DNA of 64,000 nt from Paraphysoderma sedebokerense (taxonomy: Eukaryota > Blastocladiomycota > Physodermatomycetes > Physodermatales > Physodermataceae). A program made the position numbers and the translations under genes. The first letter of the stretch is position 1. Each line of letters opens with the position of its first letter. The notes below the pieces were generated by a model. The model was not told where the DNA came from. It saw only the letters and a list, made by a program, of their open reading frames with translations, and searched no databases. Where the stretch lies: assembly GCA_025602915.1 (NCBI GenBank), contig JAHLJZ010000094.1, positions 29,238-93,237 of the forward strand. The letters are read 5' to 3'. Below, piece after piece: positions 11,289-43,641 of the stretch.

Positions 11289-11814
11289 GAGCGAGAGTCC
11301 ATTATAAAGACGGAGCAAATCAATCTGGTTGTATTTTGAAGCATTGCTATGTACTTCTTCCTGACCTGAATGATGTCGCTTAGCGCCTTTCTCTTTAAGT
11401 TTAAATTGACATGGAATATCTGAAATGATGATAAATGTGCTTAGTATATGCACTGGCCACTGGGTGTGCTTTTTCATCATAGAGATCATGTACTGATCAT
11501 GTTAACTCAAATCGTAGATCGCCGATTGTTGGCTTTTGCACTTGAGAAGTTTGACTGAAATTTGAGATCATGGAAGGTCATACTCATGGTGACGTGTGAA
11601 ACGCGAGACATTTGTGACTTTTTATAAACCTCCTTAAATCTTAATGAATGCGCGACGCTTGATAGTTGATACTTGCTTGATTCGCTCCCGCACACGCTGT
11701 AGTGTGTACAGCATATAGATTATAAAGCTGAAAGCATTAAGACAAATCCTCTTTGTTTCGCTTAAAACAGGGTTCTGCATATTCAGAATTCGGGATACGG
11801 CAAATTGTTCGATA
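11289..11814. other. Intergenic spacer before the tandem receptor array
   Basis: About 525 bases between the PMT stop and copy A. No coding signal, repeat or RNA gene that I can support. It presumably holds the PMT 3' UTR and the copy A promoter. Confidence 0.4.
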
Positions 11815-14800
11815 ATGAAACGAAATTGTGGGTCTTCACTGGGTCTGCTCCTTATCTTCTATATTTTGATAGCTGTAAGCTACAGTCTTGCGCAATCAGT
11901 TCCATCTCCTTGGTATATCACAGATTATGTTACTACCGGACACCCATATTCGGCAAATTGGTTCCCGAACGACACAACGATTGTCGATTCGGTGGTTACC
12001 GAAAATGGCAGCGTTTATATTTTAGATTCCAGCCAAAACCTTTATAAATTTGAAAATTTCTCGAATGGAATTATGAAAATACAACTAAAACCCCCTGGTG
12101 ATTCTAATAGCGATTGGTATAATGTGAAGTAAGTTTAGATACATCACATGGTGAGTCACCGGCGACTTGCTAACCAAACTTTGTAGCTTTGATCAGTTGT
12201 TTCGTCTCTGGATCCATCCACAAACGCATGATCCGTACATATTTCGCTTGCGACAACCGCATGTAACGACCACCGAGAATGTATTGTTCGATATTATTTG
12301 GTACCCTACCCTTAATTTCACCTCTGCGGTGACTCCTCCGCCACAGTATATTACATTCAACACGAATTTGCCGGCTCAATATATAGATGATCCGGGCAGG
12401 TGCTTTTGCTCTTTAAAAAAAGCATTGATTATCTCTTCTTTGAAGGCTAAGAATTCATTTATTCTAGATTCGCTTTTCTGGGACGAGAGCTATTATCGAA
12501 CGTGCATCTTCAACTTACATTTTATCAAGGAAACAGCTACTACTTAGCCTTACTGGACATGAAATCAGGAATTCACGCACCTGAAATCCTTCAATATTAT
12601 AGTGATGTCTCACCTTTAATACAAGGGGAAGTGATAATATTGGGTATAGTTTTGGAATGCGGAGGGCATTTCGATCTGGCATGCCTGGTTTCTACTGAAT
12701 CACTGCGGTCGATCAATTTTTTGATGTCGCCGTCAGGCATTCAGCCTGTATTTTGGCCGTCATGGTCATTCATTGGGAGGGCGAAAATATTGCACTATGA
12801 CAATTATCCCGATTTTACTTTCATTGTTACCGCGTATTCCTTTCATATGGTTCAGGTGGAACTATACGATGTTACTAGGATTCGTTGGGACTTTTTTTAT
12901 TGGGAACCATTCATTTATCGAGATTATAGCCATCAATTCTACGAAAGCAATAATATTAAATCCTTTGTCATTGCGCAGACTTTCCACGGCCTTTCGGATT
13001 CGAGAATTCAAATTGAACGCTATGATAAAAATTTCTATTCAGTTTTCGCATTGACGGGGGCGTTGAATTTTGACACTCTGCAAAACGAAACAGTCTCGAA
13101 ACTGATGTTAAATATGGATGAATCTATTACGGTAATGGGGAAGACTTGGGGCAATTTTTTGATTCCGAATAGTCTTACCGGTTTAGTTGATACCGCAGGA
13201 TTACCTTATCAATCACTGTTTATAATGCGCCTTCAGACTATTAGCATACGAAATCAAGTTTTGGAAGTCATCGATATCGCCAATGATATGATTAAAGTGA
13301 TATTAGTGCTTGATGGCGTCTCACAAACCGATTGCCCCAACGTAAATGCTTCAATGGCGGATCATACGGTGTCACCACATTGGCTGAATGCCACAAGTTT
13401 GGCAATCAACGTCACTGGGGCCGCTTGCGGTATTCTATTTTAATTAAGATTTCGATCGCTTTATAGATTGATTTAATTGATTATAGGAGCGCGATGGTTA
13501 ATCGTTAGTTTCCCGGATATTTTTGGTAATCCGTCTGTCGGAGAGATTATTTCTGTTCCCCCAATTATAGAATCTGTTTTTCCCCTTGAAGGAAACCACG
13601 GTATGCAATTCTCAATTCTTCTGTATTCGAGAAAATGTAGGTTCAACAAATTTTATGCCAAATAGAAACGATAATTACAGTAAAAGTATCAAACTGGAAT
13701 GACAAGTATAACAATTGGTACTCTATAAACATAGGCGAAAGCTTCGGTGTCGCTCTGGATTTGCCTGTCAACGGTAGTTTTAAAATCAGCCCTTGGGGGG
13801 GAGGATACAATCAACCTATAACTGTCACTATTAAGGACATGTCGGTTGAAATAAGGTCCCTGGGTTCATTCAACTTCAGTCACTACCCTCCTGAAGTAGA
13901 TTCAGTACTCCCTGTTACGGCGTCCACATCGGGTCCAATTGATTTTACTATTTTTGGACAGAACTTTTGGACCTGCCTTGGAATGACCTTCCCTCCATGC
14001 AACCAGCCCATCGGCATCCCAAACATTACCGTCACTGTTGGTGATAAAAATTGCAGTGATATTCGCTATAGCTCAGTATCTTTGTCACATCAAAGCACCT
14101 TGACATGTACCGTTAGTGATGGTCTTGCTGGAGTTGATCTTGATGTCGTTGTCAATTTCTTCGGACAAAACTCCTCGATCAGTAGTACTGCAAAATTTTC
14201 CAGTTACCCGCCCTCTATTGGATCGACTTCGCGCGTGCGAATTTTGTTGTTCCCAGACAACACCTTCGCTGATGATTTGAGCATAGAAGGTACAGTGATA
14301 ATTTTATTCGCCAGGCTAGCTATTGGTTCCCTGAATCTGTTTCCTCAGGTCAAAGCTTCGGCCCTCCAAGCACTGCAGCACACATCATCTTTACAGCGAT
14401 AAACGGCCTCAATTATACAGCCTGCAGCTCGCCGGTATTATTGAACCACACCTTGGCCACTTGGTAAATATTCTGATAATGTCCTCCTGATGAAGAAGTG
14501 CTAACGCATATTTTGTTATGTAATTAGTAACCTTTCCCATAATCTTCCGTCTCCTGCGATATATAATGTTTCAATTTTAGTATCGGGGCAGTATTCAAAT
14601 GCGGATAAGCAGATCAAATATGGAAATTATCCTCCGAATGCGAACTCTGCGGAGGTCAGTATGGACGAGGATACCATGTATCAGGTTGTGTTAAGTGGTA
14701 GTGATCCCGATGGAGACCCCATCGAGGTGCTTTTGACAGAGCTCCCGGAGAATGGGAAGCTCTTTCAATTCGACATCAGTAAACGGAACGCATTGGGCTT

Positions 14801-17800
14801 TGAGGCTGATCTCGGCGGCTTGACGCTAGGAAGAGTTATGGATAATGCCGGTCGTATGATATACATTCCAAACCCAGATTTCAATGGCAGGGATAGCTTC
14901 TCCTACATAGTTGCAGATCGTGCACTCTACGGCGGTCAGTGATTTCATGTTTTATGTGAAAGCCCGAAAATTAGCTCATATATTTTTTGAAGTCATGACG
15001 AATTCAACCCCTGCCATCTATTCTATGATTGTTAAATCCGTTCCAGGTAAACCTCAAATTAGAGCAGATGTGTTAATATAGCGCTGACATGATGGAATGA
15101 CAGACGCTCCCATTGTTTCGACTGTGCGAATTCAAGTCCAAGAAGATTCGAATGAAATTATAAACATTGCAGTCACAGATATTGACACACCTTTGGCTGA
15201 TATCTCAATCGTCATAGACAGTTTACCCGGCGACGGTAGGATCGAGTACATGTTAGACTCATTAAACTCAGTGAACGTAACGGCGGTCCCTTCAACTACT
15301 CCTCCCGGCTATCACTCCTTTAAGTACATACCTAATTTGAACTACTTTGGCATCGACCAATTTACATATTATGCTACCGATGGTTTAACCAATTCGACCA
15401 CTGCCACCGCAGTAATTACGGTTCAATCTATGAACGACAAGCCCATCGCGCTTTCAGACTTCGTAATAACGAATGAAGATCAAGGATGTATAATTCGCCT
15501 TCAAGTCGAAGATGTTGATCAGCCAGCGACAGTCAAACAACGCGTGAAGATACTATCCTGGGATGATACATTAGGCAACTTACACCAAGTCGATGCGAAC
15601 GGTCTCAAATACGGGGCTTCCATTGGGCCAAACACGGAAGTTCTAGACATGTTGAATAGGATATGGTTTGAGCCAAAACCGAATGAGTCTGGCTTAGTTA
15701 ATCTCACCTTCTCTGCAACGGATGCGCAGAATGCCATGTCGAACCCTGCCACAATTATGATTCAAATTACATCGATCAACGATGCACCCTTTACTTCAGA
15801 ATGTAATAAAGATATTATTCTTGCAGGGAAATCCAATGTGTCTTTCAGTTTAACTGCATCCAATTATGACAACGACGATGTGTGAGTATTAGCGCTAGTA
15901 CTCTTTTTTCCCCGCATTCTGAGTTATTGTCTGATGACGCTACACTAACCGTCCATCAACAGACTCACCTTTCAACTTACATCGATTCCGAAAAAGGGTC
16001 GGCTCACTCACTTGGGCTCAGAGCTGTTTTTATATGATACTATTCGAAAAGCTACATTTGGAAATTCTGATGTGTCGATCGCGCTTCAATTCGAGGGTTT
16101 AAATATGGGTGGAGGGTACTGTAACAGTATGTCGAATGTTTGGATACTAGACTAATACATTTTGTTTTGCAGGAACCCGTTCGATAATTTCACGTATGTA
16201 GTGTCTGATAAAGCTGGTGCACGAACAGATCAATGTATCGTTCATCTAAAAATCCGATGTCCACCACCACTCGTAAGTATTTTTCCAATCTAATGCGGTA
16301 AGGCGAACAGGATGATTGATTTTTCGTGACTCAGGTCAATAATGTATTTGCGAAGAAGGGTGATATTTGCGAATTATGCCCTAAAGGGGCGATATGCAGG
16401 TAATGAAGAATTTTAGCTTGCTGATTTATTCTGTTGTTAACTCGAATACCTCACAGCCAAGACGGAAGTTCCCCGATATTTGCTGATCGGGGCTACTGGC
16501 TTCATCCAAATGATAACATGACACTGTTAACTTGTATGCCGGTAAATAGCTACTGATATTTCTTCCAGACAGTACTTAAGGCTGATTCAGTCTTTGTTAG
16601 GAATCTGCTTGTGTGGGACAGCAGGAACAAATCTGCGCTGACGGCTACGAAGGAATACGTAAGTTCAGGATTCTTAATATTTGACGAAGCAAAAAAAGAG
16701 TCAACGTTTTTCACCCACAGGATGCGGCACATGCAAGAAAAAATATTACCGAAGAAATTTAGAATGCATCCCATGTACCCAGGATCAAGCCATCTTCATT
16801 GGTGTTGTAGTTACCGCGTTTGTACTCGGACTCATGGGTTTATACGTCATGATCAACTTTTCAACACAGGCGTCCAGGTACATTCATGTTCTTATGTCAT
16901 GGGGGTCAAAAAGCAACTGATAATTTGCATCTTAGCCTCGCACTTATAGGAATTGGAATCAATTTCTTCCAAACAATTCTGATCCTTCGAGACTTCCACA
17001 TAAAATACCCCCCAGAATTTCACGCGTTGATGGATGCATTGTCAATTATCAATTTAAATATTCAGTTGACTCCTCCAGAGTGCGTTTTGCTAGAGGGGAG
17101 TCTTGGATATTCACTGAAGCTGCGAATAGCCGTTGCGTTTCCGTTGCTCCTGATACTTTTATCTCTACTTATTTCTGCTGCGGGCAATCGTTTCATTCCG
17201 GACAAAGTTGCTGCTTACTTGCGAAGTAGGGGCAATACTCCTCAGCAAAAGCTATCGGCTCAATATATTTTGATACGAATGGTTAATTTGATTTTGGCGT
17301 GGATATTCATGAGCGTAGCTACAAATTCATTGGCACTTTTTGATTGTACAGCTGAAGCGGATGGCAACTCTTATTTAGGTTTGTTTCTAAGATTCCTTAA
17401 CTCTCTGGTTTCCATCGGGCTTATCTTGTGGTTCTGCCAGATGCCGATCCGAGTGTCAAATGCTGGGTAGAGCCCATTTGGTGGGCGGACGTACCGTTGG
17501 CTGTTGCCGCGTGCATGTAAGACTACTAATTCTGCGTTAACGCTGTGGAACAGGAAGAGAAGCTTATCTTTTTCTTTTCTCATCAGAATTTATGTGGCTG
17601 GCATTCCCTGCTACTTTCTCTTGTTACTCGTTGTGCTTCACCAAAAACGTCGAACCGGTCCTTTTTGGGAGAAGGCCCGAGAAATGAGTCACCATATTAT
17701 GCGAATGGATCGTAGCTTTAAACCGGAGAGCCAATACTTTACATTTGTTCAAATATTACAGAAATTGATAATGGTTCTAATTAATATGTTTTTTACCAAG

Positions 17801-18231
17801 TAAGTTCTTTAGGCGGTATGCATCTTGAGCTCTCTAAACTAACCTTCTTGTGTATAATAAGATATACGGCTCTTCAGGTCGCACTGATGATAATGATTTT
17901 GGTTGGGAGTTCCCATATATATTCAAAATATCAACCATATAAAGTACGGCAACTGAACAACGTTGAATTGCTTTCCGGCGTATGCTCGATTCTCGTACTA
18001 CTGCTTGGTCAGGTGTATTCCAGCTCATCGACCCAAGAAAATCAAAAACAAGTTATAACTGTCCTGATCCTACTTGTCATATCTACGTTCATCTTCGCTT
18101 TCTGGATTGTTGGTTTTACGACTTCATTTCAGTACCTTCGAGATCTTGCTCGTTCGTTCAAAAGAAAGATGGGGAAATTGGACCATAAAATTGAAGTATC
18201 TCAAAAATCCGCTGTTCAAACGGACATATGA
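11815..18231 (+). CDS. Giant surface protein, IPT/TIG plus tandem-95 ectodomain with multi-pass membrane region (copy A)
   Basis: First of three tandem paralogues; about 1,800 residues by analogy with copy C. From ATG 11815: a signal peptide (LGLLLIFYILIAVSYSLA), a conserved N-terminal module (SPWYITDYVTTG...NWFPNDTTIVDSV...GSVYILDS) and a long beta-rich region in one large exon at about 12466-13440. An IPT/TIG domain lies at 13880-14220 (PPEVDSVLPVTAS...DFTIFGQNFW...GVDLDVVVNFFGQNS). Tandem-95 repeats lie at 14660-14940 and 15110-15880 (VSMDEDTMYQVVLSGSDPDGD; VQEDSNEIINIAVTDID; NEDQGCIIRLQVEDVDQP). A Cys-rich juxtamembrane stalk follows at about 16200-16800 (GCGTCKKKYYRRNLECIPC). The membrane region has about nine hydrophobic helices from 16800 to 18140, with the motif ALFDCTAEADGNSYL...DADPSVKCW between helices. 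Stop at 18231. More than fifteen short introns. Function unknown; a surface receptor or TRP-like channel is my inference. Confidence 0.8.
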
Positions 18232-19299
18232 GCAATTGGAGGGTTCTTACAGATACTGGTAGCTTCTTTACTAGAAATCTTGTTTAGGATTACAGTAGTA
18301 CGGATTACCATTATGTAAATTATTAATCAAACAGTGATGCCTTGCGCCAAAGTCAATTCGAATTTATAGCGGTTACATGGGTATCACAAATCACGACGAA
18401 TTCACAGACACAGAAAATAGAATTTTGTATGTTCAAGAATTCAAATATGTTGTTTCGTTTATTTTTTGAATATTTTGAATAGAATGTTGTCGTCCAACCA
18501 AGTCAATCATGTTTGAGTTTAATGTATTGCCCAGCTAGCGGCTTTCATTGATGCAACTTATGGGATCCACTGATGAAAAAATTTAAATTGGGCTGTGATT
18601 TTTAGCTTCTGCTCTAATACCCCGGGAATATGTTTCTAAACCTACTAATGATAAATTGTTTAAGGACACGCTAGATTCCGCAGTCGATTACAGAAAGGGG
18701 AAAGTGGTCCAAAAAAAATTGACAATGAATAAGAACGATAATTTTGCCAATCATGCCATGCAAATTTGGAAGGTGGTGGATCAGGGTTATTTAGTGTCAT
18801 GCGTACTATATATACACTTGCACACAACTTCCTTTTGGTTCTTACAAAGAAAATGAGTTTAAGTGCAATGCAGCCAAGCAATCCATACTGACCTGTTTAA
18901 AATTAAGACAGTGTTGCCAGAGTGACAAATTCACCATATGAGCAAATGGACACTTAATTGACCGCGTTTGTCTCTCACGGTTCCACGGTCCAAGAAACTA
19001 GAAAGTAGAAACCATCGCGAGTCGGGAGTCGGGACATGGAGTCGGGCCAGTCGTGAGTGTGACCCTTCGCTCCCCTCGTTCGCTCACTTAGCTGAAGTGA
19101 CCAGCGTTGGTAATTGGGATTGCGGGGATAAATACAGACAGGATAGAATAACTACATCGTGAGCATCGTCCCGATTGGAGTTTCAACAACATACATGTTT
19201 CCCACCTGCAGGCTTCAATGTAGGCACTTCGCTTTCCCTAACGCTCTGCACCTATTCAACTTAACCTAGATTTAAATTTCCTACGAGGAATGCTTTCTG
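18232..19299. other. Spacer between copy A and its 3'-end duplicate
   Basis: About 1 kb without convincing genes. It is AT-rich except for a more GC-rich island at about 18965-19160 (repeated GTCGGGA-type words and CTCCCCTCGTTCGCTCAC), which looks like inserted sequence of another composition, possibly a small non-autonomous element. I could not find its ends. Confidence 0.4.
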
Positions 19300-19832
19300 C
19301 CGAGTTACAGCACCCTTTATTCAAATGTTTTTATTCAGATATTACAAAAATTGGCCATGGTCTCAATCAATATGTTCTTTACGAAGTAAGGCTTTCAGTC
19401 GGGATTCATCACCTACAACCAGGCACTGACCCAATTTCTATGAATAGATACCCGGCTCTTCAAGTCGCTTTGACCATTGCGGTACTTATGACTATTTCTG
19501 GTGTATACCTTAAATTGGAGCCATATAAATCGAACCAGTTGAACAGAATCGAATTACTGTCTGGTGTATGCTCTATTCTAGTGTTGCTTCTCGGATTAGT
19601 TTATTCCAGCCCATCCACTCTCGAGAATCAGAAACAAGTCATGACTGTCTTGATTCTACTTGTCATTTGTACGTTTATAACCGCAGTCTTAGCAGTTGGA
19701 TTTGTCAATGCGTATCTGTACATAAAAGACTTTTCGGATTCATCAAATGGAACAGCAAAAGGTAATGACCAAGGGGCCCCGAAATTGACCATCTATCAAA
19801 GTAATGTCATGAGTAGTCGAGGTGCACCGTGA
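19300..19832 (+). pseudogene. Truncated 3'-end duplicate of the receptor family (copy A-like)
   Basis: Matches the last two exons of copy A (17736-18231). The first part (near 19330-19385) aligns with the exon reading FVQILQKLIMVLINMFFTK, here in frame as FQILQKLAMVSINMFFTK. It is followed by a conserved donor (AAG|TAAGG context) and a 62-base intron ending TGAATAG. The last exon reads YPALQVALTIAVLMTISGVY and LNRIELLSGVCSILVLLLG, close to copy A, but with a different charged tail (NGTAKGNDQGAPKLTIYQSN) and stop at 19832. Everything upstream (ectodomain and most helices) is absent. The last exon is fully open, so this is either a young fragment or an exon still used in some transcript. Confidence 0.7.
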
Positions 19833-20291: not shown

Positions 20292-21434
20292 TTATATACA
20301 ATGAATTGCCCCAAAAGCCCTTGCCTCTTCCCATAAACTCGAAATCGGATCTTCCTCGTCCATCTCAACGTCGTGAAGGTCTGTCGAGAGAACTACAATT
20401 GGAAGTTGCAGAGGCTCCCTTTCCCTTATATCTAAATCCGTATACCCGCATACTTCTGAACAATTATCCTCCTCTGAAACGATTGGGTAACAATTGCAGC
20501 TATATACGATATCATTCCCGACAATTTTCCCTTCTTCCACAGGGAATCCGCTGACATCTAATGCCCACTTCGTCATATTCGACACATACTTGTATCCGCC
20601 TTTCGTGGGTCGGTAACTCCCTTTGTTTTCCATATCTTTTGATGCCGACAACAAAGGAAAGTCTCGGTCATACGATTCAACCGACATGAGTTCATTCTTC
20701 TCGGAGAGTTCATCAGAATTTTTGCCAGTGGTCTCAACGGTCTCACTGTCATCCAACTCCTCCATTTCCTCCTTTCGCTGTTGAATCAATTTATCTAACC
20801 GCTGCTTTTCACATTCGGGTAACTTTAAGACCGGATGCGTCGCACTACTAATGTCGCTAACAACCACCATCTGAGCACATAAGCACAAGTATGCTGGTGT
20901 CCGGTCCCAGCCATGTTTGTAGTGGTTTATGATGGTTATGTGAGGGAGTTGGATGAAGAGCGATGAAGTTCTCTCTTTTCTCGGGATGGTCGGCGAATTG
21001 TTTCTGGATGCATTTCGAGTCGAATGTGGTGAAAAAGTGAAGTGAATATACGTCGTTTAAAATGCCATGAACGTAGCATAGTCGAGACTTGACGGTTGTT
21101 GCCCTGCCCGTAGCGGAGTTGTTTGTCGAGGATGAATGTTGACAGTAGTCCGCTGTCGAAACTCCCCCAGGAATTCGGATTCTCGCAGCACAGAACGTCC
21201 CAACAGCTGGTATTTCTTGTGTCTCGTTCGATGCATAAATCTGTATATTTTTGTCTGTTAGAAAAAAGTTACGAAACTATCTGTGAGTATAGAGGCACTT
21301 ACGTACGGAAGGAGGAAGAACAAGCTGGGAGATGGATGAATCCTCCCATCAGGATAGCCGGGAGGATATTTTTTGGGAGTGAATGGTAATTCGTCGATAC
21401 AATCAAACCGAACGCTCATTTGATAATTGGACAT
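20292..21434 (-). CDS. Protein of unknown function with a GWDRTP motif
   Basis: Minus-strand gene starting at ATG 21434 (MSNYQMSVRFDCIDELPFTP). Exon 1 ends TAC|GTAAGT at about 21301. The next exon (TKIYRFMHRTRHKKYQLLGR) joins in phase 0. A second intron, from a GTTCAT donor to a CCAG acceptor near 21020, brings in a frame that reads LFIQLPHITIINHYKHGWDRTPAYL and then a charged coiled segment (CEKQRLDKLIQQRKEEMEEL) to a stop at 20292. A short intron of about 34 bases may exist near 20490. GWDRTP after a hydrophobic strand resembles the P-loop of myotubularin-type phosphatases, but the position of the catalytic Cys is Tyr (TAC). I do not recognise the protein with confidence. It starts 185 bases from the selenophosphate synthetase start on the other strand, so the two probably share a promoter region. 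Confidence 0.45.
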
Positions 21435-21618
21435 TTTAACATTTGTTTCATGGACGTCACTTGAGGCCCGGCCTGACCGAACAGTTGAAGCCAATTGATA
21501 AAACGTTCAAGTCACAGAACATCTCGATCCAGAATAATATCAGATCCACTAAAGTACATTTAAACTCTTTACAGTCGCATTTCTTTCATTCGGGAGCTGA
21601 TATCTCGGTTTTACCGAA
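21435..21618. promoter_or_regulatory. Short divergent promoter region
   Basis: Only 184 bases separate the ATG of the minus-strand gene (21434) and the ATG of the selenophosphate synthetase (21619). A shared bidirectional promoter is inferred from the spacing; no specific element is seen. Confidence 0.35.
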
Positions 21619-23635
21619 ATGAAACCGAAAATAAAAAAATTTGTGCCCAAGGAGCACGGCCTCGCACCTTCTTTTCGTTTGACAAACTACTCTGATTTGA
21701 AAGGGTGAGGATGTAAAGGTATTTTCAGATAGTTCTTTCTACCCAGAAATGTGTTTTACATCTAATCCAATGTTGGCGCTGGTTAATATTAACAGTGCCG
21801 CAAGAAGAACTTCTTCGATTGATTGCGGCAATACAGCCATCATCCTCCCCTTCCAACCTCATCACATCTCCTTCTTCCTCATCACCCTCCATCTCCTCCT
21901 CCTCCTCCGCACCCCTTCAAATAAATTCAAAGAACTTTTTGCCTGACGACGAAAATAATGATGCCAACGAATTGATGACAAAACGAAAAGATCAAGAAAG
22001 AGCTCTATCGAATGGAAAAATTGGCATGGATGCGAGTATCATGCCCACAAAGTATCCTGATATTAAACTCGTACAGACAACTGATTTTTTCTATCCCCTC
22101 GTTGGTAAGTCATTCATGATTTACCGTTAGTGGCATTAGGCTTCGCCACCGCCACCCTTTGCTACATCTTTGACTCTTGCGGTTCTGCAAATAATCATTA
22201 ACTTTTGTTCGAATTCTTGCTTTTGTTTCTGAACTTTGATCATATACTACAGATGATCCGTATATGCAGGTTCGTTACTTGCCATTATTTTTTAGTGCAT
22301 GCTATGTTGCTGGTTTCTGATTGATCGGCCCCAAAATAGGGAAGAATTACCTGCGCCAACGTTTTATCTGATCTTTACGCAATGGGAGTAACAGATTGCG
22401 ATAACATGCTTATGTTGCTCGGAATTTCTAGAAAGCTAGAGCCTGATGAGAAAGAAATAGTCACGAAATTAATGATGCAGGGATTTAACGGTATAGTTCG
22501 ATGTTTAGGCTCTTCGTTTCAGAGGGAAGGGGCTAAAACTCTGTCGCTTAAAAATAGACTTAGCTATCGAAGCTGGAACCATGGTAACTGGCGGACAGAC
22601 TGTAGTTAATCCGTGGTATGTGGTTGGCGGCGTCGCATCAGCTGTTGTGAAGGAGTCTGAAATCATCTAGTAGGTGATCGTGTTCCCTCGAAATAATTAT
22701 GTAGTTTTCTCCTATACTGAGTGACCGGCATTAAACTTTTTTCAAATTTTTCCAATTGATTAGCCCTACCAGTGCTGTACCCGGTGACGTTCTTGTGCTG
22801 ACCAAACCTCTCGGAACGCAAGTTGCAGTCAATGCACATCAGTGGTTGGGAAACGAAGCTAAGTTTGACCGAATTAAGCATGTCATAAGCGAAGAAGATG
22901 GTAAATATCCAGCATTCATGGTTTTTTCTCCGCCCTATTCCCGGATTATGCTCATTAGGCTACTTAGTGATTAAGGTATACGACACTGCGACACTTAGCA
23001 TGGCCAGATTAAATCGACAAGCGGCTAGATTAATGCATAAATACGGTGGGTACCAATCTACTTATCAATCTCTGCCAGCGCTGCTTCGTAATCTGATAGA
23101 TTGTAATATGTGTGTTCTGCTGGTTGGAAATTATAGGTTGTCATGCATGCACCGACGTCACGGGGTTCGGCATCATGGGACATGCAAATAATTTAGTATC
23201 CACACAACTTCATTCAGTTTCTTTCCGTATTCATACCTTACCGCTGCTTAAAGCTATGGATAAGATTGTGAACGCATTGGGCGGCGCATTTAAACTGTTA
23301 CAAGGTCGAAGCGCCGAGACTAGCGGTATGCAACCATGAGATGTCAGCGGATTGGTCGTTTCCTAACAATACGTTTATTTTTCGTAGGTGGTCTATTACT
23401 TGCCCTGCCCAAGGAGAATGCCCAAGACTATATCGACGAGCTTCAGCGGTTGGAGGGGTGGCCAGCTTGGATTATCGGAGATGTCACAGAAGGTAGCGTT
23501 GTCCGATGCTGAGGTTAGATTTCAATTGCGACAGAAATTTAACTCTTCTTTCCAGGACCGCGAATTGCAACTTTAATTGAAACACCTAAAATCGTTTATG
23601 CCCAAAACAGAACGTATAAGGACATCTATGGATAG
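21619..23635 (+). CDS. SEPHS2: Selenophosphate synthetase (selenide, water dikinase), predicted selenoprotein
   Basis: Makes selenophosphate, the selenium donor for Sec-tRNA, from selenide and ATP. ATG 21619 is the first Met after an in-frame stop at 21598. It reads [14 protein letters not shown], then [11 protein letters not shown], then TGA (codon 30, 21706-21708), then GCK. An intron from 21719 to 21795 splits the next Val codon and [12 protein letters not shown] follows. The Gly-[Cys/Sec]-Gly-Cys-Lys-Val-Pro-Gln motif is the catalytic N-terminus of this family. A Ser-rich insert follows (about 21845-21920). Later exons show [79 protein letters not shown] and [11 protein letters not shown], all family signatures. 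It ends [16 protein letters not shown]...DIYG at stop 23635. All inferred splice junctions join in frame and I see no other disruption, so the TGA is best read as selenocysteine. Eight introns, one flanking a 17-base exon. Confidence 0.88.
21706..21708 (+). other. In-frame TGA, predicted selenocysteine codon
   Basis: The codons read GGG TGA GGA TGT AAA followed by a split Val codon. This places TGA at the position that is Sec in many animal SPS2 proteins and Cys or Thr in others. The frame upstream (29 codons) and downstream (the full enzyme) is intact and family-like. Confidence 0.85.
22253..22269 (+). other. 17-base microexon in selenophosphate synthetase
   Basis: Flanked by TACTACAG and GTTCGT. 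It joins the exon ending LVG(at)|(donor 22105) to the exon at 22340 and supplies DDPYMQ, giving [14 protein letters not shown], the family sequence. Confidence 0.8.
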
Positions 23636-24235
23636 ACTGAGGGGAAGAGTCTTTTAACCTAAATCACACAACGAGTGACGAATGGCCATTCCCTTCTTTG
23701 ACATCACAGGTCTTCTATTGCAGGGACTCCTCGCTGGAATTTTCCATTTAATTTGAGTCAGCTAAATCAGATTTTCGTTGTAACGACCGATTCAACTCCC
23801 TGCTGAAACCGTACGGATTAAACTACCATCCTTATCGGCGGAACTGAGTATTGCGGTTTGAATACCGATTCATCGTGAAATCATGCTATTTGTATATATC
23901 GCATATTTTTGTCCTGTACACGTAATGTCAACGCACGATTTGATGCTATATCAGTATAACCATCTGCTTTGCATTTTATATTCAATCATAGTGATGCTGT
24001 ACGGATAAAAATTATTGAGTTTGTGCAGTTGAAAAAATTAGTATCATCTGATATGAATATCGATGGTATCGGTTGAAAATATTTTTGCTATAGGGTGTCA
24101 GAATATGGGCGAATACAAGCAAGATTATTTCGATGAACACGTTGTGAGGCATGAAGCGCCGTATTCAATTATGGCTTTTGCCCCGAAGTTTATATTTCGC
24201 TCACATCTAATAATCGGAATCAGCGCTATAGCTTA
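23636..24235. other. 3' flank of selenophosphate synthetase (expected to hold a SECIS element)
   Basis: About 600 bases with no gene. If the TGA is Sec, a eukaryotic SECIS hairpin should lie here. The best hand candidate is weak (about 23804-23862): TGAA on both sides, an AACCG/CGGTT pairing just inside and AAA about 12 bases after the first TGAA. Longer pairing is poor, so I do not annotate it as a SECIS. Confidence 0.35.
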
Positions 24236-24368: not shown

Positions 24369-24947
24369 ACAGCAGTATTTTCGCCGACAATTCCTGACTC
24401 ATGTTATTCAAAGTAATTCGAAATCATAACTTGATTCACCGTTGGAGAACTTATCACTTATGCTCCGAAGGCAATATTGATTTTTTAAGGCAGATTTTAC
24501 ACAATATCGCCGGGGACGAGAATGACGTTGCATTGAATGATAAATGTATTCTACCGATGGATTGGATCTGTGCAATATACCTGAATATGTCACTTGAATG
24601 GGTGATTAGATTATTGCTCCATATATGCTTAAGTCACCGGCTGTGTCAGGGACCCTAGGGACTGTCTGCTGACTATCTGCTGTCAGTTGGAGAATCGGAA
24701 ATTCGCGAATCGTGACTCCCGAGCCTTAAAGTGGGAGACGGCCTTGTCACCCAGCTAGAAATTTGCGGGTTCCGACGACGGACATAACCCCTGAACCCCA
24801 TCGTGCCACTGCAAGTATAACTAATTCAAGATTGCAATCTACCGATAGATTACATATTACACAAGTAAATATACAATCGCTACCTCATTCTGGAAGAACC
24901 CGCGGCACTTTATCTTGCTAGTTGCATACACCCAACGTCGCGCCAAA
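24369..24947. other. Spacer upstream of copy B
   Basis: About 580 bases. A somewhat GC-richer patch at about 24640-24790 differs from its AT-rich surroundings but I see no terminal repeats. No gene supported. Confidence 0.35.
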
Positions 24948-27900
24948 ATGCCTTGCGTGCAAAGCAGATTTTTTAGCAGTGCGCCGATGTTGCTGTTCGT
25001 CTTGTACTTTCTGCTAGTCTTCAATAACAGTCTCGTATCATCAATTTCCTTTCCTTGGTATATTACTGAGTATATCACAACTGGAATACCAAGTTCCGAA
25101 AATTGGTTCCCCAACGACACCGAAATCGTGGACACTGTTGTCGCTCCGAACGGCAGCGTTTATGTACTTGATTCCAATCGGTCCTTGTACAAATTCAACG
25201 GCTACTCCTATTCGGTTCAGAAAACACAATTAACTCCACCAGGTTCCCCGGTTTCGTCTTGGTATGGTGCAGAGTAAGTGAATTTCGCAGTCCTGTTATG
25301 TTTCCCCTACCTAGCTAACAACCTCCACCAGTTTTGATCAATTGTTCCGCCTTTGGATTCATCCAGAATCATACGACCCATATCTATTTCGCTTGCGTTG
25401 GTCTAATATATCAGCTGCAGAAGATGTGATGTGTGAGATTGTTTGGTATACTGATGTCGATTTCGGCAATTCAACGACATCCCTCCCACAGAATGTTTCT
25501 TTTAGCACACACATACCGGTCACAAACGTAAGCGGTATAAATCGGTAATATTGATATTATGTCTTATCGTTATTTCTGGATTGCTTTTACCGTTGTTAAT
25601 GAAATGTGGCCCGCCAGATACCTCGATCTAGGACGAGAATTCGGTCTGCGGCCTCCCTTCAGCTTGCCTACCATCAACAGAACACCTTCTATTTAGCATT
25701 GTTGGATATGAAAGGTGGAATTCATGCACCCACAATTCTACAAGAATATAATAATAGTATTGCCCCGCCACCCTCAACGACGCTTGCGGGTATTATTCTA
25801 GAATGTGGAGGACAAAATGGACTCGCCTGCCTTGTTTCTGATAACGTTACGGAATCCAAAAATTTTATGATAACACCGTCGGAGATACAGCCTATTTCAA
25901 ATGGGAGGATGGAATGGGGCTTCTGGCCGGGACAAAAGATACAGCAATATCGAAATGTTGCCCCAAATCTGACTGCCTTGATGATAAATCCCAAAGGCGT
26001 GATCGAGTTGTATCATGTATCTCAGACGAGCTCCTGGCTGAAATTTTTATATTTCTTTCCGCCTCCAGGGGTTGACCTTCCGTATGAAATTGCTGCTCAA
26101 CCAGGATATCGTGACTTCGTGCTAACGAAAAATGGAGAAGGCGCTCTGTTTGCCAGGACAGTAATTACTGTTTGGAATATCGGAATCTACAGCTATCGGA
26201 ATACGGAGCTCACGTCCAATGGGGCTATACAACTTCAAACCATGCAAAACGAAATAGTATCCCGCATTGCATTACATGCAGATGATTCGTTCACTGTAGT
26301 CGGTACAACTTGGGGTAATTTTTCCACACCAGAAAGTCCGACTGGTTTATTAGATCCGAGCGGCTATGCGTATCAAACCTTGTTTTTTGTCCGCTTCCAA
26401 AGCATAAATATTCTCAGCCAAGCTTTGAATTTCGTTGATATTATAAATAATATATTTCAAGTAATACTGGTACTTGGTGGAGTTAAGGAAGCGGATTCAC
26501 CCAGCGTAATTGCCACGATGACATCGAAATACGGTCTAAATATGACGGCCGGATATGGCATTCCCCTTTGGTTGAATGAAACAGTTGTTAGAGTCGAATT
26601 CACAGGAATCGGTTGCGGTTTGTTTTGTAATTTTGAAGAATTATTGATTGAGACTGCGCACTTATCTCTAATGGGATAGGACCGAAAATTCTGAGTCTGG
26701 ATTTTCCGGGAATTCCATCGAATCCCTCAATCGAAGTCGTGGTCAATGTCCCTCCAATTGTTACTTCCATTTTTCCACTCTCCGGAACAGTCGGCATGTT
26801 GATTGATTGTAATTAATGACTCCGTCTGCATCCTAACTCTCTAATTTCTGTTTCTTCAAATAGGAATGAGCTTAACCGTATCATTACGAAACTTTTACGA
26901 CGATTCAGCGCCTGCGGTGTGGATTGGTGATTTTCCGTGTAGTTCTGACACACCGGCAATTGACGGTATTTTTCATTGCCCAATTCCTGAGGGCGGAGGT
27001 GCCAACCTGCCTGTCATTATTGAACACTACTCGGTACCATCCTTCACTTCATTCAACTTCAGTTATGAGCCTCCAGTTGTGGATTCAATATCACCCACAA
27101 CTGCTTCCACCGAAGGCCCAATTACTTTCACTATAGTGGGGAGTAAATTCGGATATTGTGGAACGCCGTTTACTTCACCATGTGGTTCAATCATCTATTT
27201 TAAGCTTATCAACATCACTATAGGTGACAGAGCATGCCTAAGAATTCGCCATACCAATACTTCGCTATCATGTACAGTTCCAAGAGGTGTTGCTGGGATG
27301 GATCTCGACGTCGTGGTCGCTTATTATGGACAAAACTCCTCAACCAATAGCTCGCCAAAGTTTTCCAGCTTCCCCCCTGTCATTTCTAAGACTTCCAAAC
27401 GGAGAATCCTCCTCTCTTCAGATGATCCGTCGAGTTCCCTTTTGGAAATAGAAGGTACGAGGAGATTGAATTAATTCAGCAATGTATTTGAGGAGATTGG
27501 TGTTGTCGATATCTTTTACTGATTGTGAATTCTTTTCAAACCATCTAGGTCTAAACCTCGGTCCTCCAAACACAAAAGCGTCCGTTATTTTTATTGCGAA
27601 CAATGGCACGAATTTTCCAGTTTGCAATACTTCGGTATCAATGAATCACACGTGGTTAAGATGGTATGTCGTTTCTTAATTGCCAAATACGCGAAAGTTG
27701 CTGGGTTAATTTAATCAACATGTAGTGAGATACTTCGTAATCTTCCATCTCCGCACCTTTATAATGTTTCTGTACTTGTGGCGGGACAATATTCCAATTC
27801 TGACACACAGATATTCTATGGGAATTTCCCTCCAATCCCCAACCCCACAGATATTACTACAGACGAAGACAATGTGTATCAAGTTGCTTTGGCCGGCATG

Positions 27901-30900
27901 GACTCAGATGGTGATCCCGTCGAAGTGTTTTTGACCGAGCTTCCATTGAATGGGACGTTATATCAATTTGATGCACGGTATCCTAATGCAAAAGGCATTC
28001 CGGTGGACTTTGACGGGGCTATGGATGGAAAGGTCATCGATCATCTGGGTCGTGTGGTATACGCACCCAATCCCAACTTTTGCGGCTCCGACAATTTCTC
28101 TTTCATTGTAGCTGACCGCGTCAATAACGGTAATAATCGGTGTCTGATTTTCATGTCAAAACTACATACTTACACATCCACGATTCCTTTAGTTTATACA
28201 AATTCGACCCCCTTGACTGTTCCTATCACTGTTAATTCGATACCTGGTATATTTTTCTTTCCATTTGTTTATGTCAATTGCCTATTATTCATTGCGATTG
28301 ACATTTTTCAATCGCAGACCCACCTGTCGTGTCCAATATCGCAGTCTCTGTTCAGGAAGATTCGAACGTAATAATTAACATTGCGATCACCGATGTTGAC
28401 ACCCCTTTGCCAGGCGTTTCCGTCGTCATCGATACCTTACCCGGTCATGGCGAGATATCATACATGCTGGACAGCACAGCATCTGTATATATCACCGCAG
28501 TCCCGTTTACGATTCCTCCTGGCAACCACTCAATTAAGTACGCGCCGCGACCAAATTATTTTGGGGCAGACCAATTCGCATATTACGTCAATGACGGCTT
28601 GAATGATTCGACTATTGCCGTAGTCACAATCTCTGTACAATCTGTAAATGACAAGCCGGCATCACTTTCACAATCCATCACAATGATGGAAGACCAAGGC
28701 TGTACTATTCCATTTAAGGTCGATGATGTCGATCAACCGGCGACAGTGAAACAACGAATCAAGATAACGTCCTGGAACCATACGTTGGGAAATTTATATC
28801 AAGTTAACTCCAACGGACTCAAATACGGAAGCCCTCTAGGATCCAATGTCGATGTCACAGACAATTTCAATCGGCTCTGGTTTCAACCAAACCCTAATGA
28901 ATACGGAACCGTTAACCTGGAATTCACGGCTACTGACGAATTGAATGCCGTTTCGGATTCGGCGTCTATTTCTATCACTATTGAACCCATTAATGATGCT
29001 CCTCACATTTTAGACTGCAAGGGAGAAATACTGTTAAATTCTACTCTCAAAATCGGTCCTACAATCATTGATATTACCTCGGTGGTTAAGGATGCCGATG
29101 TCGGCGAACAGTAAGTTGCGACGTCTTCGCCTCTTCCGTTTTAGGTAAAGGAATATTGTTTGACATTTATAAATAGATTTAGTTTTGAGCTAGTAGAAGC
29201 CCCGCAAAAAGGCAAATTACTGCTTGAAGGCAATACTGTTGATGTCGGGACTCGATATCTCATTAATACCTCGGCATTAGCCAACGGCGAAGTTCCTATT
29301 GTTCTGAATTATCAAATCTTACCGCAAGGAGGAGGGTAAGCCTAAATGAGTCTCACGACGCTTGTATGATGATTCACTGACATAGCTGTATTATGTCTAA
29401 TAGCAATCCTTTTGCCAATTTCACCTACCGGTTATTTGATAATGCGGGAGTGTCGACAGAGTTGTGCACTGTAAAATTTACTATTAAATGTCCTCCCCCA
29501 TTAGTAAACAATGTCTTTAAAGAAAACAGCGGCGATATTTGCGAACCATGGTTAGAGTTTTCATAGCTTACGTTTCAATTAATTACTCTCAAAATACTGA
29601 AACGAATACATTATAGTCCGTCTGGCGCAATGTGTAGTGAAGATGGCAGATATCCCCCTTATGCTGCCCCGGGTTATGTACGTTCTCCTATTAATTGGTT
29701 CTTCGACACATAGTGTCTAACAAATTGTTACCCTTTACAGTGGAAGAACGAAAACACAAATGGTCTCAAAATATCGAAGGGGGCTTTCTCCCTTGTTCGC
29801 CGGTATGTATAGAAAATCATCTCTTCACTGCCGTCACCTTTCTAACAAGCACGGTAGCCTTCTTCCTGCGCCAGTGATCAAATGAGTGGTTGCGCTACAG
29901 GATACGCCGGAGTCCGTAAGTTATAAGTTGTTCAATTTCTGGTTCTGAGCAGAAGATATAGTAACCTTACATTAAAAAGGATGCGGACAATGTTCAAAAG
30001 GATACTACAGATTAGGACCAAATTGCGAAAAATGTCCCGACAACACAGGCCAAAATGTACTGGTATTCATGGCTTGCATTGCTGCCTGCTGTATCGCGGT
30101 CTTCCTTCTGTTTAAATTCGCTGCTCGCGGCCCACGGTAACATTGCATTGGACTCGAATCTAAGCAAGATGTGACATCTAACATCCATTCACCACAGTCT
30201 TGGTTTCGTATTACTCCTGGTCAATTTCCTTCAAACGATTCTTATTTTAAACGATTTAAAGTTGAGATGGTCGCCTGTCTTTCAAACGGCCATTAATAGT
30301 CTCAGTTTCTTCACCCTTAATATTGGTGCGTTCTTTCTTTATTATTTCACAAATCGTAATGTGTCCTAAAATACTGTCCCTAGAATTGACTTCACCCGAG
30401 TGCATGACCACTGATTATGAGTTTCATTTCGCCATGAAAAATCGAATTGCGTTGATGGTTCCGCTTCTGGTTCTCCTCTTACTTGGAGTTGTCCCTTTGT
30501 TCGGGTGGTGGAGAATTCGCGTTCTCGGGTTATTTATCAAAGGACTGTTTTCTGGTGGATGCAACATCAAGATTGGAGAACTAAAGCAGCATCAGAGGCG
30601 TATTTGGTTATTGTGTCTCAAAGTTTTTAATATGATTTTGAATATCGTGTTCGTCCCGGCGGCGTCTCAGGCGTTGGAATTGTTTGACTGTACCATGGAA
30701 GCGGATGGAAATTATTACTTGGATGCTGAGCCCAGTTCCAGATGCTATACTCCGAAATGGGAAGAGGTAATATTCGGGGTTATATAGCAACTGAGGTGAT
30801 TGATAACAAATTTTCCATTCTAACTGGCCAATCTGATTTTGTGTACAGAGCAAGTTGTATGCAATTGAATTGGTTTCCAATAGCATCATGCGAATTGACA

Positions 30901-31183
30901 TATATTTTGCATCCATTGTAGTAATCTTGAGTTGATATGCACTGTCGCTTCGTTTCTCGTTCTCAACATCGGTTTACTCTTCTATACCCAGAATTTCACT
31001 ACCCAAAGTCAAATCGAATCATTGACGGCAGTCGCATTCGTTCTTGTTTTTGGATCCTTAGGTTTGATTGCTATTGCTGCATTCTATGAATTTAGGCGTA
31101 GTATTCAAGATTGGCAAAAATCGCGAACGAATTCTATTCTGGTAACTCAAGGAGAGAAAGCGAAAAGCCTGCAATTAGCATAA
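24948..31183 (+). pseudogene. Giant IPT/TIG plus tandem-95 multi-pass surface protein (copy B), 3' end damaged
   Basis: Same architecture as copies A and C. ATG 24948 opens a signal peptide (APMLLFVLYFLLVFNNSLV) and the N-terminal module (FPWYITEYITTG...NWFPNDTEIVDTV). IPT/TIG lies at 27070-27370 (PPVVDSISPTTASTEGPITF), tandem-95 repeats at 27790-28130 and 28330-29110, a Cys-rich stalk to about 30030 (GCGQCSKGYYRLGPNCEKCP) and membrane helices from 30055. Two lesions stand out. Near 25618-25655 it is one base shorter than copy C, which breaks the frame unless a second acceptor (CTAG at 25628-25631) is used. After CYTPKWEE (donor at 30767) the two exons that encode about 120 residues in copy C are missing; the next exon (30922) has the wrong phase and would read TAA at once. 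So the protein likely ends near 30787, without its last helices. It may be a pseudogene or a truncated gene. Confidence 0.7.
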
Positions 31184-31476
31184 GTAGCTATCATACTATC
31201 GTATTTTAAATAATTTATACACATTATATTTCCCTGATGTGTGCTTGTTTAAGTAAAATGTTATCTTTTAACTCGTATGAGTTCTTTTGCCAGGATCCTG
31301 TGATCCTTGCCTCCGTTCATCGTCCGTCTCAGAACTCAGACAATATATATTCTCAATTGCCAGGGCTTTCGACATGCCTCGACCAAAGCTGTGTGTTCCC
31401 AAGTTCTCAGTCATTCGTGTCTGCAGATCGTCAGCATTACATGTGTTTAAGAGTTAAGACTGTAAAAGACTGTAAA
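31184..31476. other. Spacer downstream of copy B
   Basis: About 290 bases of 3' flank with an unsupported open frame. Nothing else seen. Confidence 0.3.
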
Positions 31477-31915
31477 CCGTTCACTGATGGTTCACTGGCT
31501 GTTCACAGTGAATGGTTATCCCTGAGCGCACAGGAACGCGTCAAGTGTTTCGTGTCACAGCGTGCCAATGCGAACACCGACTGAACTCGGGAACTGAATC
31601 TGCAAGCATACTGGATCCCTGGAAATAACTTCGGGAAGTAAATAGATTAGATTTTAAAAATTAACGACAGCATATTGATCTTGTATCTTCTCTATCAACA
31701 GGTTCAATTCCGAAGGTTGGAATTTAGCAGCCTTGTCAGCGCTCTTACCCGGTCTCTCCTGCACAATGAATAATGTTGAATCCGAATCGTACCTATTTCC
31801 ATCCATGGCTCCAGTGACTTCCATCAATATTTGCAAACCCGTTATAACAGTGATTTGACCACGAAGCTGCCATTGATTGTTGAAGTGTTGACGGTTCAGA
31901 CTTCGGAGCCTGAGT
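31477..31915. repeat. Dispersed repeat, copy 1
   Basis: Aligns in direct orientation with 33959-34504. Shared blocks include AACCGTTCAC, GAGCGCAC..CGCGTCAAGTG, CGTGTCACAGCG, CCTATTTCCATCCATGGCTC and GTGTTGACGGTTCAGA. The minus strand carries a short coding-like piece in this copy (PGKSADKAAKFQPSELNLLI), which has the look of a Myb/SANT-like helix start, and an upstream piece ending VTGAMDGNR. Both are too short to name. The two copies differ by many substitutions and indels, so they are old. Confidence 0.6.
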
Positions 31916-32201
31916 CACGGGTACCAAAAAGTTCTGGTTAACTCTTGATAAGATCCAGTTTCAGTATCCAAATTTAGCGAAACTGGGAAATATATATCTG
32001 CTTCTCCCTATCTCTTCAGTCGATGCAGAGAGAGGATTCAGCGCAATGGGGAGAATCAAAACTAAGTTACGCAATTCCATGAATAATGACTTGCTCAATG
32101 CTCTGATGTTTATTTCTGTTAATGGCCCGCCCTTAGAAAGTTACGACGCAGTCAAAGCAGTAACCAGATGGCATCGCATGAAGAAAAGACGTCCATGTTA
32201 G
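31911..32201 (+). mobile_element. hAT-family transposase C-terminal remnant
   Basis: An open frame of nearly 100 codons reads KKFWLTLDKIQFQYPNLAKL, IYLLLPISSVDAERGFSAMG and RIKTKLRNSMNNDLLNALMF, ending at TAG 32201. This is the hAT dimerisation domain: the YPNL...LPISSVDAERGFS...IKTKLRN core is diagnostic. There is no zinc finger or catalytic core attached upstream; the sequence before it is the dispersed repeat. It is therefore a broken element. Confidence 0.8.
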
Positions 32202-34734: not shown

Positions 34735-37700
34735 ATGCCCGGCATTTGGAACAAATTCTCGGGCTGTTTACAGTGCGCACTGCTTATATTTTATATTTCG
34801 CTCGTCTTCAACAGCGCTGTCGTCTTCTCGATTTCATCCCCATGGTATATCACTCGAGATGTCACAACTGGAGACCCATCCTCGACAAATTGGTTCCCCA
34901 ATGATACAACCATTGTAGACACCGTGATCGCCCCCAACGGCTCCATTTATGTGCTGGATTCCAATCAAACACTATACAAATTTGACGATTACACCAGTCC
35001 AATTCAAAAAGTAGCATTACGTCCTCCAGGTCCTCCGGGTCCTCCGCCTCCATCTTGGTATAATTCAACGTAAGTCGATATTCTCAGATAGAGCAGTACC
35101 TAAATATTTAGGAATGAACTAACAAAATCTGCCAGCTTTGATCAACTGTTCCGACTTTGGATTCATCCGCAATCGTACGACCCTTATATTTTTCGATTAC
35201 GTTGGTCAAATATGAACGCTTCCGATTTTGTAATGTGTGAGATTCTTTGGTATAACGGCGTTAATTACGGCAATCCATCGTCACCTCCGCCAAAAAGTGT
35301 TTTATTCAGCACTCGCACAATAGTAAAGTATATACCTGATAACAAACGGTAAGGCTCTTTTGATTGTAATCATACTCAACGTTTATTTTATTTTATTAAT
35401 CAAACTGTTCAGATACCTCCATTTGGGTCGCGATCCGGGATCAGCTGCATCTCTTCAGCTTACTTACTATCATGACAACATGTACTATTTGGCCTTGCTG
35501 GACATGAAATCTGGAATCTCAGCTCCTGTAGTTCTGAAGGATTACAATGACTATATACCTGTCGCAGGCGTGGGACTTATTGGTATCGTTTTAGAATGCG
35601 GAGCACAACCCGACCTTGCTTGCCTTGTGTCCGATAGCATGGCGGAATCGAAAATTTTTTGGATGAAATCAACAGGCATTCAACTAAATTTTACTGGTCT
35701 CAACTGGGGGAGTATTCCGTCTTCTTACATGAAATTTCAACAATACCAGAACTTTGCTCCAAACATCACTGCCCTCTTTTTTCCTAATATTGCCGCTTTG
35801 GGCCGGCGCGTTGTACTATATCAAGTAAATCCAACACTAGTATCCAGACAGTATCCCGAGTTTACTCTACCTTCGACCGGTAACTATCAAGACCGCTATG
35901 ACAATTTTCAGTTCACAAAAAATGGCGACGCTGTGCTCTTCGCCGAAACTGAAAATATCAATGCCTTTTCCGGATATGAATCGAAAATCAACATCTACGC
36001 TTACTATACGAGCAAGAATACTGCGAGCGGTGGTAGTTATTCAGCTTCCACAGTACTTCAAACTTCTCAAAACGACACAGCATCGCTTCTCGTACCACAC
36101 GCCGATGGATCTTTCACCGTCGTCGGAACGACTATGGGAAACTTCTCGAATGTCGATAGTCCAACTGGGTTATTGGATGCCAATAGATTTACGTATCAGG
36201 CGCTCTTTTTTGTCCGTTTTCAAGGTATCAGGATCCGGACTCAAGCACTCGAATTCATTGATGTTGTGAACAACAAATTTCAAGTGACAGTGGTGCTGGA
36301 CGGAGTCACTGAAGCCGATTCTCCTACAGTGCTACCCTCAATAAATGCGCAAACAGGCTTTAATCCGATTTGGATGAACGGAACTGTATCAGTTAACTTT
36401 ACCGGAATCTTTTATGGTATGTTATCTTCTCATTGGCTTCATGCTTTGCTTTGGACGGTATGTTGATTGTCTAGGTTTACAGGTCGACAAACGATGACGC
36501 TTTCTTTTCCGAATATTCCATCTAATCCATCCATTGAAACTGCAGTTGATGTTCCGCCACTCATTAGTTTGGTTTCACCCCTCAATGGAACAATTGGTGC
36601 GTATGTTTTCAGTCGTTTAGCTTCTTTCGACGTTAATAATGACACATTCATTTTCTGACGATTAGGAACGCCTCTCGTAATCAACGTTACAAATTCAAAT
36701 GACGTTGATTGGCCTGAAATCCGAATTGGCAACTTCTATTGCGCAAATACGCAACCACCATACAATCGCAGCTTCCAATGTAATATCCCTGAAGGCGGAG
36801 GTGCAAATCTGCCCATCAATTTGACTGTCAAAGGCGTAAGTGCCTTGTACTCATCGAACTTTAGCTATAATCCACCGACCATAGATTCAATATCACCAAT
36901 GACGAATCCTACAATTGGACCGATAACTTTTACTATCACCGGAAGGAATTTCGGGTTATGTGGGCCAAAGCCCTTTTTCCAATGCGGCTCATTCATCAAT
37001 TCTCCAAACCTTACAATCACTATTGGAGATAGAATGTGTCAGGACATGCGTCATTTCAATACTTCTTTGACATGCACCGTTCCGCAAGGTGTTGCTGGCC
37101 TTGAGATTGATGTTATTGTAAATTATTTCGGGCAAAACTCTTCAACGAGCAGCGTGACGAAGTTTTCGAGTTACCCACCTCAAATCTTTTCACTGTCGTC
37201 CAACAGAATTGTGTACTCTTCCAACAATCCTAATGCATATTTTTTTTCGGTTAATGATAATTCGTTGATATAATTGAAACGAACGTGCATTTACTGACGG
37301 CAATTGTTTAAGGTCAAAACTTCGGGCCCCCAAGTACGAATGCCTCCTTAATTTTCACTAATATCAATGGAACAAATTTTACGGCATGTGATTCATCCCT
37401 TATTGTAAATCACAATATGGCGAGCTGGTGGGTAATTCTGAGATGTCAAATGCACCGAAAAAAAATACTGAAATGCGGTTGTTTTTATCTAGCAACCTTC
37501 TTCCGAATCTTCCATCGCCGCAAGTCTATAATGTTTCCATCTTTGTCGCTGGACAATATTCGAATGCAGACATGCAGATCAGATACGGCAATTTCCCCCC
37601 GGTTGCAAATCCTACGAATGCTACCGTATCAGAAGATACTATGTCTCAACTAGTTCTCTATGGCAGTGACCCTGATGGGGATCAAATTGAAGTGATCTTG

Positions 37701-41320: not shown

Positions 41321-41654
41321 TGGAGCCCAAATTAATTAATCTGTATATATTATCACCTATTCTGTATATGCTTAGAGAAAGGCGTGCTATTTGTTCATTG
41401 TGATATTAGTCCGACGGGCGGGAGGATGGATATTAGATAAATATAGGCGGGAGGAGTATTAGAAATCATGTATTGATATTCCTCTGAAAATATATTTATA
41501 TTTTTAAATTATTCGACATGTGTGGTTCTATTGTATTTATCGGATGTCGGTGGAATTAGTCAGTTCCGCGACGCCGGTTTCAAGCGATTGTCGCAACGCC
41601 TGGAAAAACTTTGCAACACCAGCACTGTCGCAAAGATATAGATATTTAAATTGC
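41321..41654. other. Intergenic spacer
   Basis: About 330 bases between copy C and the thioredoxin reductase. AT-rich, with short GGCGGGAGGA duplications near 41415 and 41448. Nothing else seen. Confidence 0.35.
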
Positions 41655-43470: not shown

Positions 43471-43641
43471 ATACTTATATCCAAAATGTAATACTTTAGT
43501 AGTTTTTAGTTAAGAATTCTGTATTTAAGAACACAAATATATTAAAGGGTCGCGTGCTATGACGTAATTGTCTGATTGCGGAGTTCGGCTCGCATAAACT
43601 GACAAAACCGACTACGGACTTACTTGCATTCGTCCCATTTT

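Follow-up and report, generated by a model that had tools for sequence, protein, structure and literature searches.

The 64-kb stretch of DNA analysed here, which we refer to as the window, carries a ten-exon selenophosphate synthetase (SPS) gene with an in-frame TGA at its catalytic site, and we estimate a probability of roughly 85% that it is a genuine selenocysteine (Sec)-encoding SPS2 (selenide, water dikinase). The Sec reading is favoured by the position of the TGA at the catalytic site, by a frame that is intact on both sides of it, by the TGG tryptophan codons and TAG stop of the gene, and by two predicted RNA structures, a SECIS-like element in the proper place and an SRE-like stem-loop over the UGA; position, frame and both predictions likewise support the proposal of the initial annotation that UGA is read as Sec here and that SPS is itself a selenoprotein. 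From the DNA we infer that Sec is inserted, that the source has the Sec machinery and belongs to a fungal phylum, and that the enzyme is active. In the mechanism that we propose, the ribosome would reach the UGA at codon 30 of the SPS mRNA, and the SPS enzyme would then supply the selenophosphate that the same cell needs to make Sec.

The gene occupies positions 21619–23635 of the forward strand, from the ATG at 21619 to a TAG ending at 23635, with exon borders placed by hand from the sequence and the exons joined by script. Exon 1 (21619–21718) holds the start codon, the N-terminus and the catalytic DLKG-U-GCK, exon 2 (21796–22104) contains a long Ser-rich linker and exon 3 (22253–22269) is a micro-exon of 17 nt; these are followed by exons 4 (22340–22490), 5 (22558–22669), 6 (22764–22900), 7 (22968–23045), 8 (23137–23325), 9 (23388–23492) and 10 (23556–23635), the last ending in the TAG stop. 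All nine introns are GT-AG, measure 62–148 nt and keep the frame throughout, intron 1 (21719–21795, 77 nt) beginning 10 nt past the TGA. The joined frame comprises 426 codons including the TAG stop, its sole internal stop is the TGA at 21706–21708 (the predicted Sec codon, residue 30), and with this codon read through the protein has 425 residues. The string GGG TGA GGA TGT AAA, which had been assigned to the catalytic motif, was located at 21703–21717, where it lies within DLKG-U-GCKVPQ, and the open, family-like frame and clean junctions claimed for the gene were borne out by the nine GT-AG introns, the single internal stop and a score of 244.7 bits for the read-through protein against NCBIfam TIGR00476 selD (cutoff 125). 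The nearest upstream in-frame stop before the ATG is at 21598, and the first in-frame ATG downstream of the TGA is codon 94, a start at which would yield a product that lacks the catalytic loop.

Both AIRS domains, N and C, are present in the protein (PF00586, PF02769), and the PDB entry 'Selenide, water dikinase 1' matches it with an E-value of 1.1e-120, the aligned motif reading LKGTGCKVPQ with Thr at the Sec site. Core identity is 60% to this PDB SPS1, 52% to 5l16 and 35% to 2yye, which we take to be human, Leishmania and Aquifex proteins, respectively. Bacterial relatives were obtained when archaeal SelD genes with SECIS-like elements were sought as a scan control: the first contig scan gave no relatives, and the best 80 of the 587 relatives from the second were all bacterial by title and share 31–37% core identity with SPS. 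The 60% identity to PDB SPS1, set against 31–37% to bacterial SelD, indicates that SPS is, by sequence comparison, a selenophosphate synthetase of eukaryotic type. The codon aligned to the SPS TGA is itself TGA in 63 of these best 80 relatives and a Cys codon (TGC or TGT) in the other 17. A widened pattern gave 60 TGA and 15 Cys, the remaining five loci were read separately (3 TGA, 2 Cys), and a narrower first pattern had caught only 18 of 80 loci (9 TGA, 8 Cys, 1 other) because the residues after the site differ in most of them. TGA in 63 of 80 bacterial SelD genes at the aligned codon argues that the TGA in SPS is not due to chance and, judged by this alignment, it occupies the homologous Sec/Cys catalytic site. 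A passage of PMC4561486 defines SPS2 by Sec or Cys at the catalytic site, and here codon 30 is TGA followed by G-C-K, which places the gene in SPS2 provided that TGA encodes Sec; the same passage describes SPS2 and selenoproteins as co-occurring perfectly in eukaryotes. Sec, Cys and Thr, which the initial annotation gave as the residues found at this site, do occur there, but its list was incomplete, with Arg, Gly and Leu also described in animal SPS1 in that portion of PMC4561486.

Two PDB-aligned blocks of SPS are separated by 58 residues, compared with 16 in the PDB chain, and the first half of this insertion is Ser-rich. The Ser-rich linker (21838–21915) is a CT-rich coding tract, and its start gives one strand of the UGA stem-loop.

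Of all stem-loops in the spliced SPS mRNA, the most stable is predicted to sit over the UGA, and it is SRE-like in form. Its helix is made of a 5' strand, AAGGG-U-GAGGAUG, at 21701–21713, which includes the UGA, and a 3' strand, CAUCCUCCCCUU, at 21841–21852 in the first part of the Ser-rich linker, with an inner hairpin at 21796–21830, all on the forward strand. In the spliced mRNA this stem-loop folds at -32.1 kcal/mol with a z-score of -4.93 (0 of 200 shuffles as stable; stretch chosen by hand), and a shorter stretch that omits the second helix strand gives a z-score of -2.18. A scan took in the spliced mRNA together with flanks of 60 nt (5') and 615 nt (3') and moved in 12-nt steps, with 40 shuffles per scan window. 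When 156 scan windows of 84 nt were ordered by z-score, ranks 1–3 lay over the UGA, ranks 4 and 7 over the SECIS candidate described below, and rank 5 began 9 nt past the UGA; among 153 scan windows of 120 nt, ranks 1–4 lay over the UGA, ranks 6 and 8 over the SECIS candidate, rank 5 elsewhere in the coding region, and rank 7 again began 9 nt past the UGA. Protein-preserving synonymous shuffles were as stable at the UGA in 4, 5, 2, 7 and 21 cases per 1000 for five stretches. SRE stem-loops are reported, in the relevant portion of PMC4561486, for every UGA-containing eukaryotic SPS gene, and the stem-loop predicted here (2 to 21 per 1000 synonymous shuffles) is what would be expected of such a gene. 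Pair probabilities in the UGA helix are 0.85–1.0 in spliced RNA and 0.72–1.0 in unspliced RNA. The idea that the helix needs removal of intron 1 was dropped, as it is predicted in unspliced RNA too; the unspliced fold had first looked different because the folded stretch stopped short of the second strand. Like the SECIS-like element, this structure is a prediction from the folding of one sequence with controls.

The second predicted structure lies in the 3' flank, where a SECIS-like upper hairpin (23991–24033, forward strand) begins 355 nt past the stop codon and consists of GUGAU, an 11-bp stem with no mismatches and five G-U pairs, a 12-nt apical loop, AAAAAUUAUUGA, which begins AAAAA, and UGAA. 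Assuming that it is present in the mRNA, the hairpin has the core features of a SECIS, namely [A/G]UGA...GA, an upper stem of 7–15 bp and an AA loop. The candidate was spotted by eye before a scan was written, and the shuffled-flank controls of that scan are to be read as a measure of specificity only; the scan follows the SECIS model of eukaryotic type that a part of PMC11227280 sets out, with a score of our own (the number of pairs, less 2 for each mismatch and 0.5 for each G-U). The hairpin was the top site in the 1212 nt 3' of the SPS stop and, in a strict scan of both strands of the window, the sole site with a score of at least 6; a looser scan gave three sites of at least 7, with this one the highest (8.5) and the others at 16313 (forward strand) and 53672 (reverse strand). 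Shuffled flanks equalled the candidate in 7 of 2000 cases under the strict model and 10 of 1500 under the looser one. Folded by itself the hairpin has a z-score of -3.59 (0 of 200 shuffles as stable), a 92-nt fold that includes it has a z-score of -2.18 (7 of 200 shuffles equal), and four neighbouring 92-nt stretches range from -0.58 to 1.17. A possible whole SECIS extends over 23978–24061 on the forward strand, with a lower helix of ATATTCAATCA and TGAT-A-TGAATAT that is not significant, being equalled or bettered by 143 of 1000 shuffled flank pairs; the minimum free energy fold contains this lower helix but pairs part of the SECIS core otherwise, and the 3' internal loop is long. Type II SECIS are said to be usual in SPS genes in the same part of PMC11227280, and a type II form can be drawn by hand here with a 7-bp stem, an AA bulge and a 5-bp ministem. 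An excerpt of PMC3473315 describes GUGA_AA cores in green algae and in a sponge, whose SPS gene is among those that have one.

Searches of the window with Rfam at gathering scores gave no matches of any kind, and the 64 kb contain no tRNA according to ARAGORN. Permissive Rfam scans of the 3' flank did not recognise a SECIS and returned only sub-threshold snoRNA, lncRNA and miRNA models, which we treat as chance matches. The flank has no AATAAA, and an ATTAAA at 23817, upstream of the SECIS candidate, could mark a transcript end ahead of it.

The neighbouring genes suggest that the window probably derives from a fungus or a close relative. Ten chained queries from these genes were compared with Pfam; four gave no match and six matched PMT, CDC73, Sey1 together with Ap4A phosphorylase, Oxidored_FMN, TRP (PF06011) and, in one case, only the generic Pyr_redox_2. 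This last neighbour encodes a low-Mr thioredoxin reductase, whose top five PDB chains (217–206 bits) we take to be fungal and whose sixth (197 bits) is presumably from a plant. The PMT neighbour is closest to PDB PMT2 (503 bits), the Sey1 piece has PDB matches to SEY1 only, and the Ap4A piece matches Ap4A phosphorylase weakly (E-value 5.2e-5); PF06011 TRP and Ap4A phosphorylase genes are mainly fungal. The description of the genome as fungal-looking thus stands as far as the neighbouring genes go, as a label that is probable rather than proven.

Several further features of the window were observed alongside these genes. Directly upstream of SPS lies a 254-codon frame (20292–21056, reverse strand), which has no Pfam match at an E-value of 0.01. 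Tandem copies of one very-large-gene family, alike by eye, occupy about 11800–18300, 24900–31300 and 34800–41400 on the forward strand, with a partial further copy near 19240–19830. Of these the first giant copy was scanned, piece by piece; it has TIG, Ig-like and cadherin-like domains followed by hydrophobic stretches, and these genes may perhaps encode receptors. A hAT transposase C-terminal dimerisation region (31914–32198, forward strand) is situated between two of the giant genes, and a 332-codon frame (43603–44598, forward strand) in which Ala, Lys and Glu are abundant and KTG-E/Q-L recurs, and which is LEA-like by eye, adjoins the thioredoxin reductase gene.

Alternative accounts of the locus differ in what they ask of the source organism and of the TGA itself. 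SPS could be a real Sec-encoding SPS2 in a non-fungus, such as an amoebozoan, a nucleariid or another protist, in which Sec use would be ordinary. The window has no rRNA at the Rfam threshold that would speak to the point, and it encodes large TIG and cadherin-like proteins, which to our knowledge are not a typical fungal trait; against this stand the best PDB chains of the thioredoxin reductase, Sey1, the PF06011 TRP gene and Ap4A phosphorylase, and we regard a non-fungal source as unlikely. Contamination by bacterial or animal DNA was also considered and is unlikely, given the short introns and the fungal-looking neighbours in the same window. A non-standard code with UGA as Trp was rejected, as the four Trp codons of SPS are TGG and the gene ends in TAG; five reading-frame pieces of PMT contain 25 TGG and no TGA, a count that adds little, since the pieces are open by construction.

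The remaining accounts deny that the UGA encodes Sec. In one, which we consider very improbable, the UGA would be read through as a standard amino acid in an organism that has no selenoproteins, as proposed for SPS1-UGA of hymenopterans, in which, according to a section of PMC4561486, a stronger stem-loop (HRE) is present and the UGA is thought to be decoded without Sec. The UGA stem-loop found here is of a kind that also promotes Sec-independent readthrough. However, the hexanucleotide GGG-UG[C/U], which that section describes as ultraconserved after the UGA in hymenopteran SPS1-UGA and as promoting readthrough, is absent, GGA-UGU following the UGA instead, and a SECIS-like hairpin is predicted here, whereas SPS1-UGA has no SECIS. 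Alternative splicing might otherwise remove the UGA, starting either from GTGAGG at 21705 or from a donor that precedes it: GGGTGAGG looks like a good donor by sequence, and 15 donor–acceptor pairs bypass the TGA while preserving the frame and running without a stop to the end of exon 2 (for example, 21677 to the normal acceptor, or 21705 to 22000 or 22036). Yet joining the 21705 donor to the normal acceptor breaks the frame, hence its absence from the 15, and all 15 pairs remove the catalytic U-G-C-K, of which GCK also occurs in SPS1, and we hold this explanation to be highly implausible. The Sec codon overlaps this splice-donor-like GTGAGG (21705–21710), and the predicted UGA helix covers it in unspliced RNA too. 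A pseudogene or a sequencing error that turned TGT or TGC into TGA is scarcely credible to us; TGA differs from either Cys codon by only one base, but the rest of the SPS gene is intact across ten exons, an error would need to strike the single codon where TGA is normal in the family, and the SECIS-like and UGA stem-loop structures would then be coincidental.

If the gene is a Sec-encoding SPS2 from a fungus, it is an unusual one, since loss of the ability to use Sec is presumed for the majority of fungi. Consensus SECIS elements are reportedly missing from most fungal selenoproteins (2019 abstract of Mariotti and colleagues), and a near-consensus SECIS in a fungal SPS would be of interest in that light. 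A tentative extension of the Sec reading, which we put forward as a possibility, is that a fungal lineage beyond the nine reported keeps Sec and that two cis signals decode the SPS UGA: a near-consensus GUGA-type SECIS and a UGA helix whose second strand comes from a lineage-specific Ser-rich linker, this helix covering GTGAGG and perhaps also blocking its use as a donor. Sec use has been reported in nine early-branching fungi (Mariotti et al. 2019, PMC6551623, as described in papers that cite it), seven of which are Harpellales, and an excerpt of PMC12611240 describes selenoprotein genes and machinery as expressed in one of these, Zancudomyces culisetae, based on RNA-seq. A 2015 survey, in the part of PMC4561486 that deals with it, found neither SPS2 nor selenoproteins in 284 fungi, and passages of two 2021 papers (PMC7988114, PMC8559351) deny Sec in fungal proteomes on the grounds that predicted protein files contain no U; Sec use by fungi is a matter disputed in print. 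A standard gene caller would halt at the TGA, which suggests that U-free predicted proteomes could arise in this way. The SPS locus bears on fungal Sec insertion by bringing together, in one well-bounded gene, a UGA, a predicted UGA-side stem-loop and a SECIS-like element, and its source is probably an early-branching fungus.

Compared with eukaryotic SPS2/SEPHS2, the latter taken by description, the gene is alike in family, motif, UGA codon, a SECIS-like element in the putative 3' UTR and a predicted UGA stem-loop. It differs from them in that the catalytic loop is followed by a longer, Ser-rich linker (58 residues versus 16 in PDB SPS1), which would supply one strand of that stem-loop, and in its GUGA core, AUGA being the commoner. 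With the nine Sec-using early-branching fungi, which are known to us by description, it shares probable Sec use in a fungal-looking genome, and unlike most fungal selenoproteins, in which consensus SECIS elements are reportedly missing, it has a predicted near-consensus SECIS upper hairpin. Hymenopteran SPS1-UGA with its HRE, as portrayed in a portion of PMC4561486, resembles the gene in that a stem-loop overlies its UGA, which stands at the corresponding codon, and is set apart from it by the GGG-UG[C/U] that SPS is missing and by the SECIS-like element, absent there and present here.
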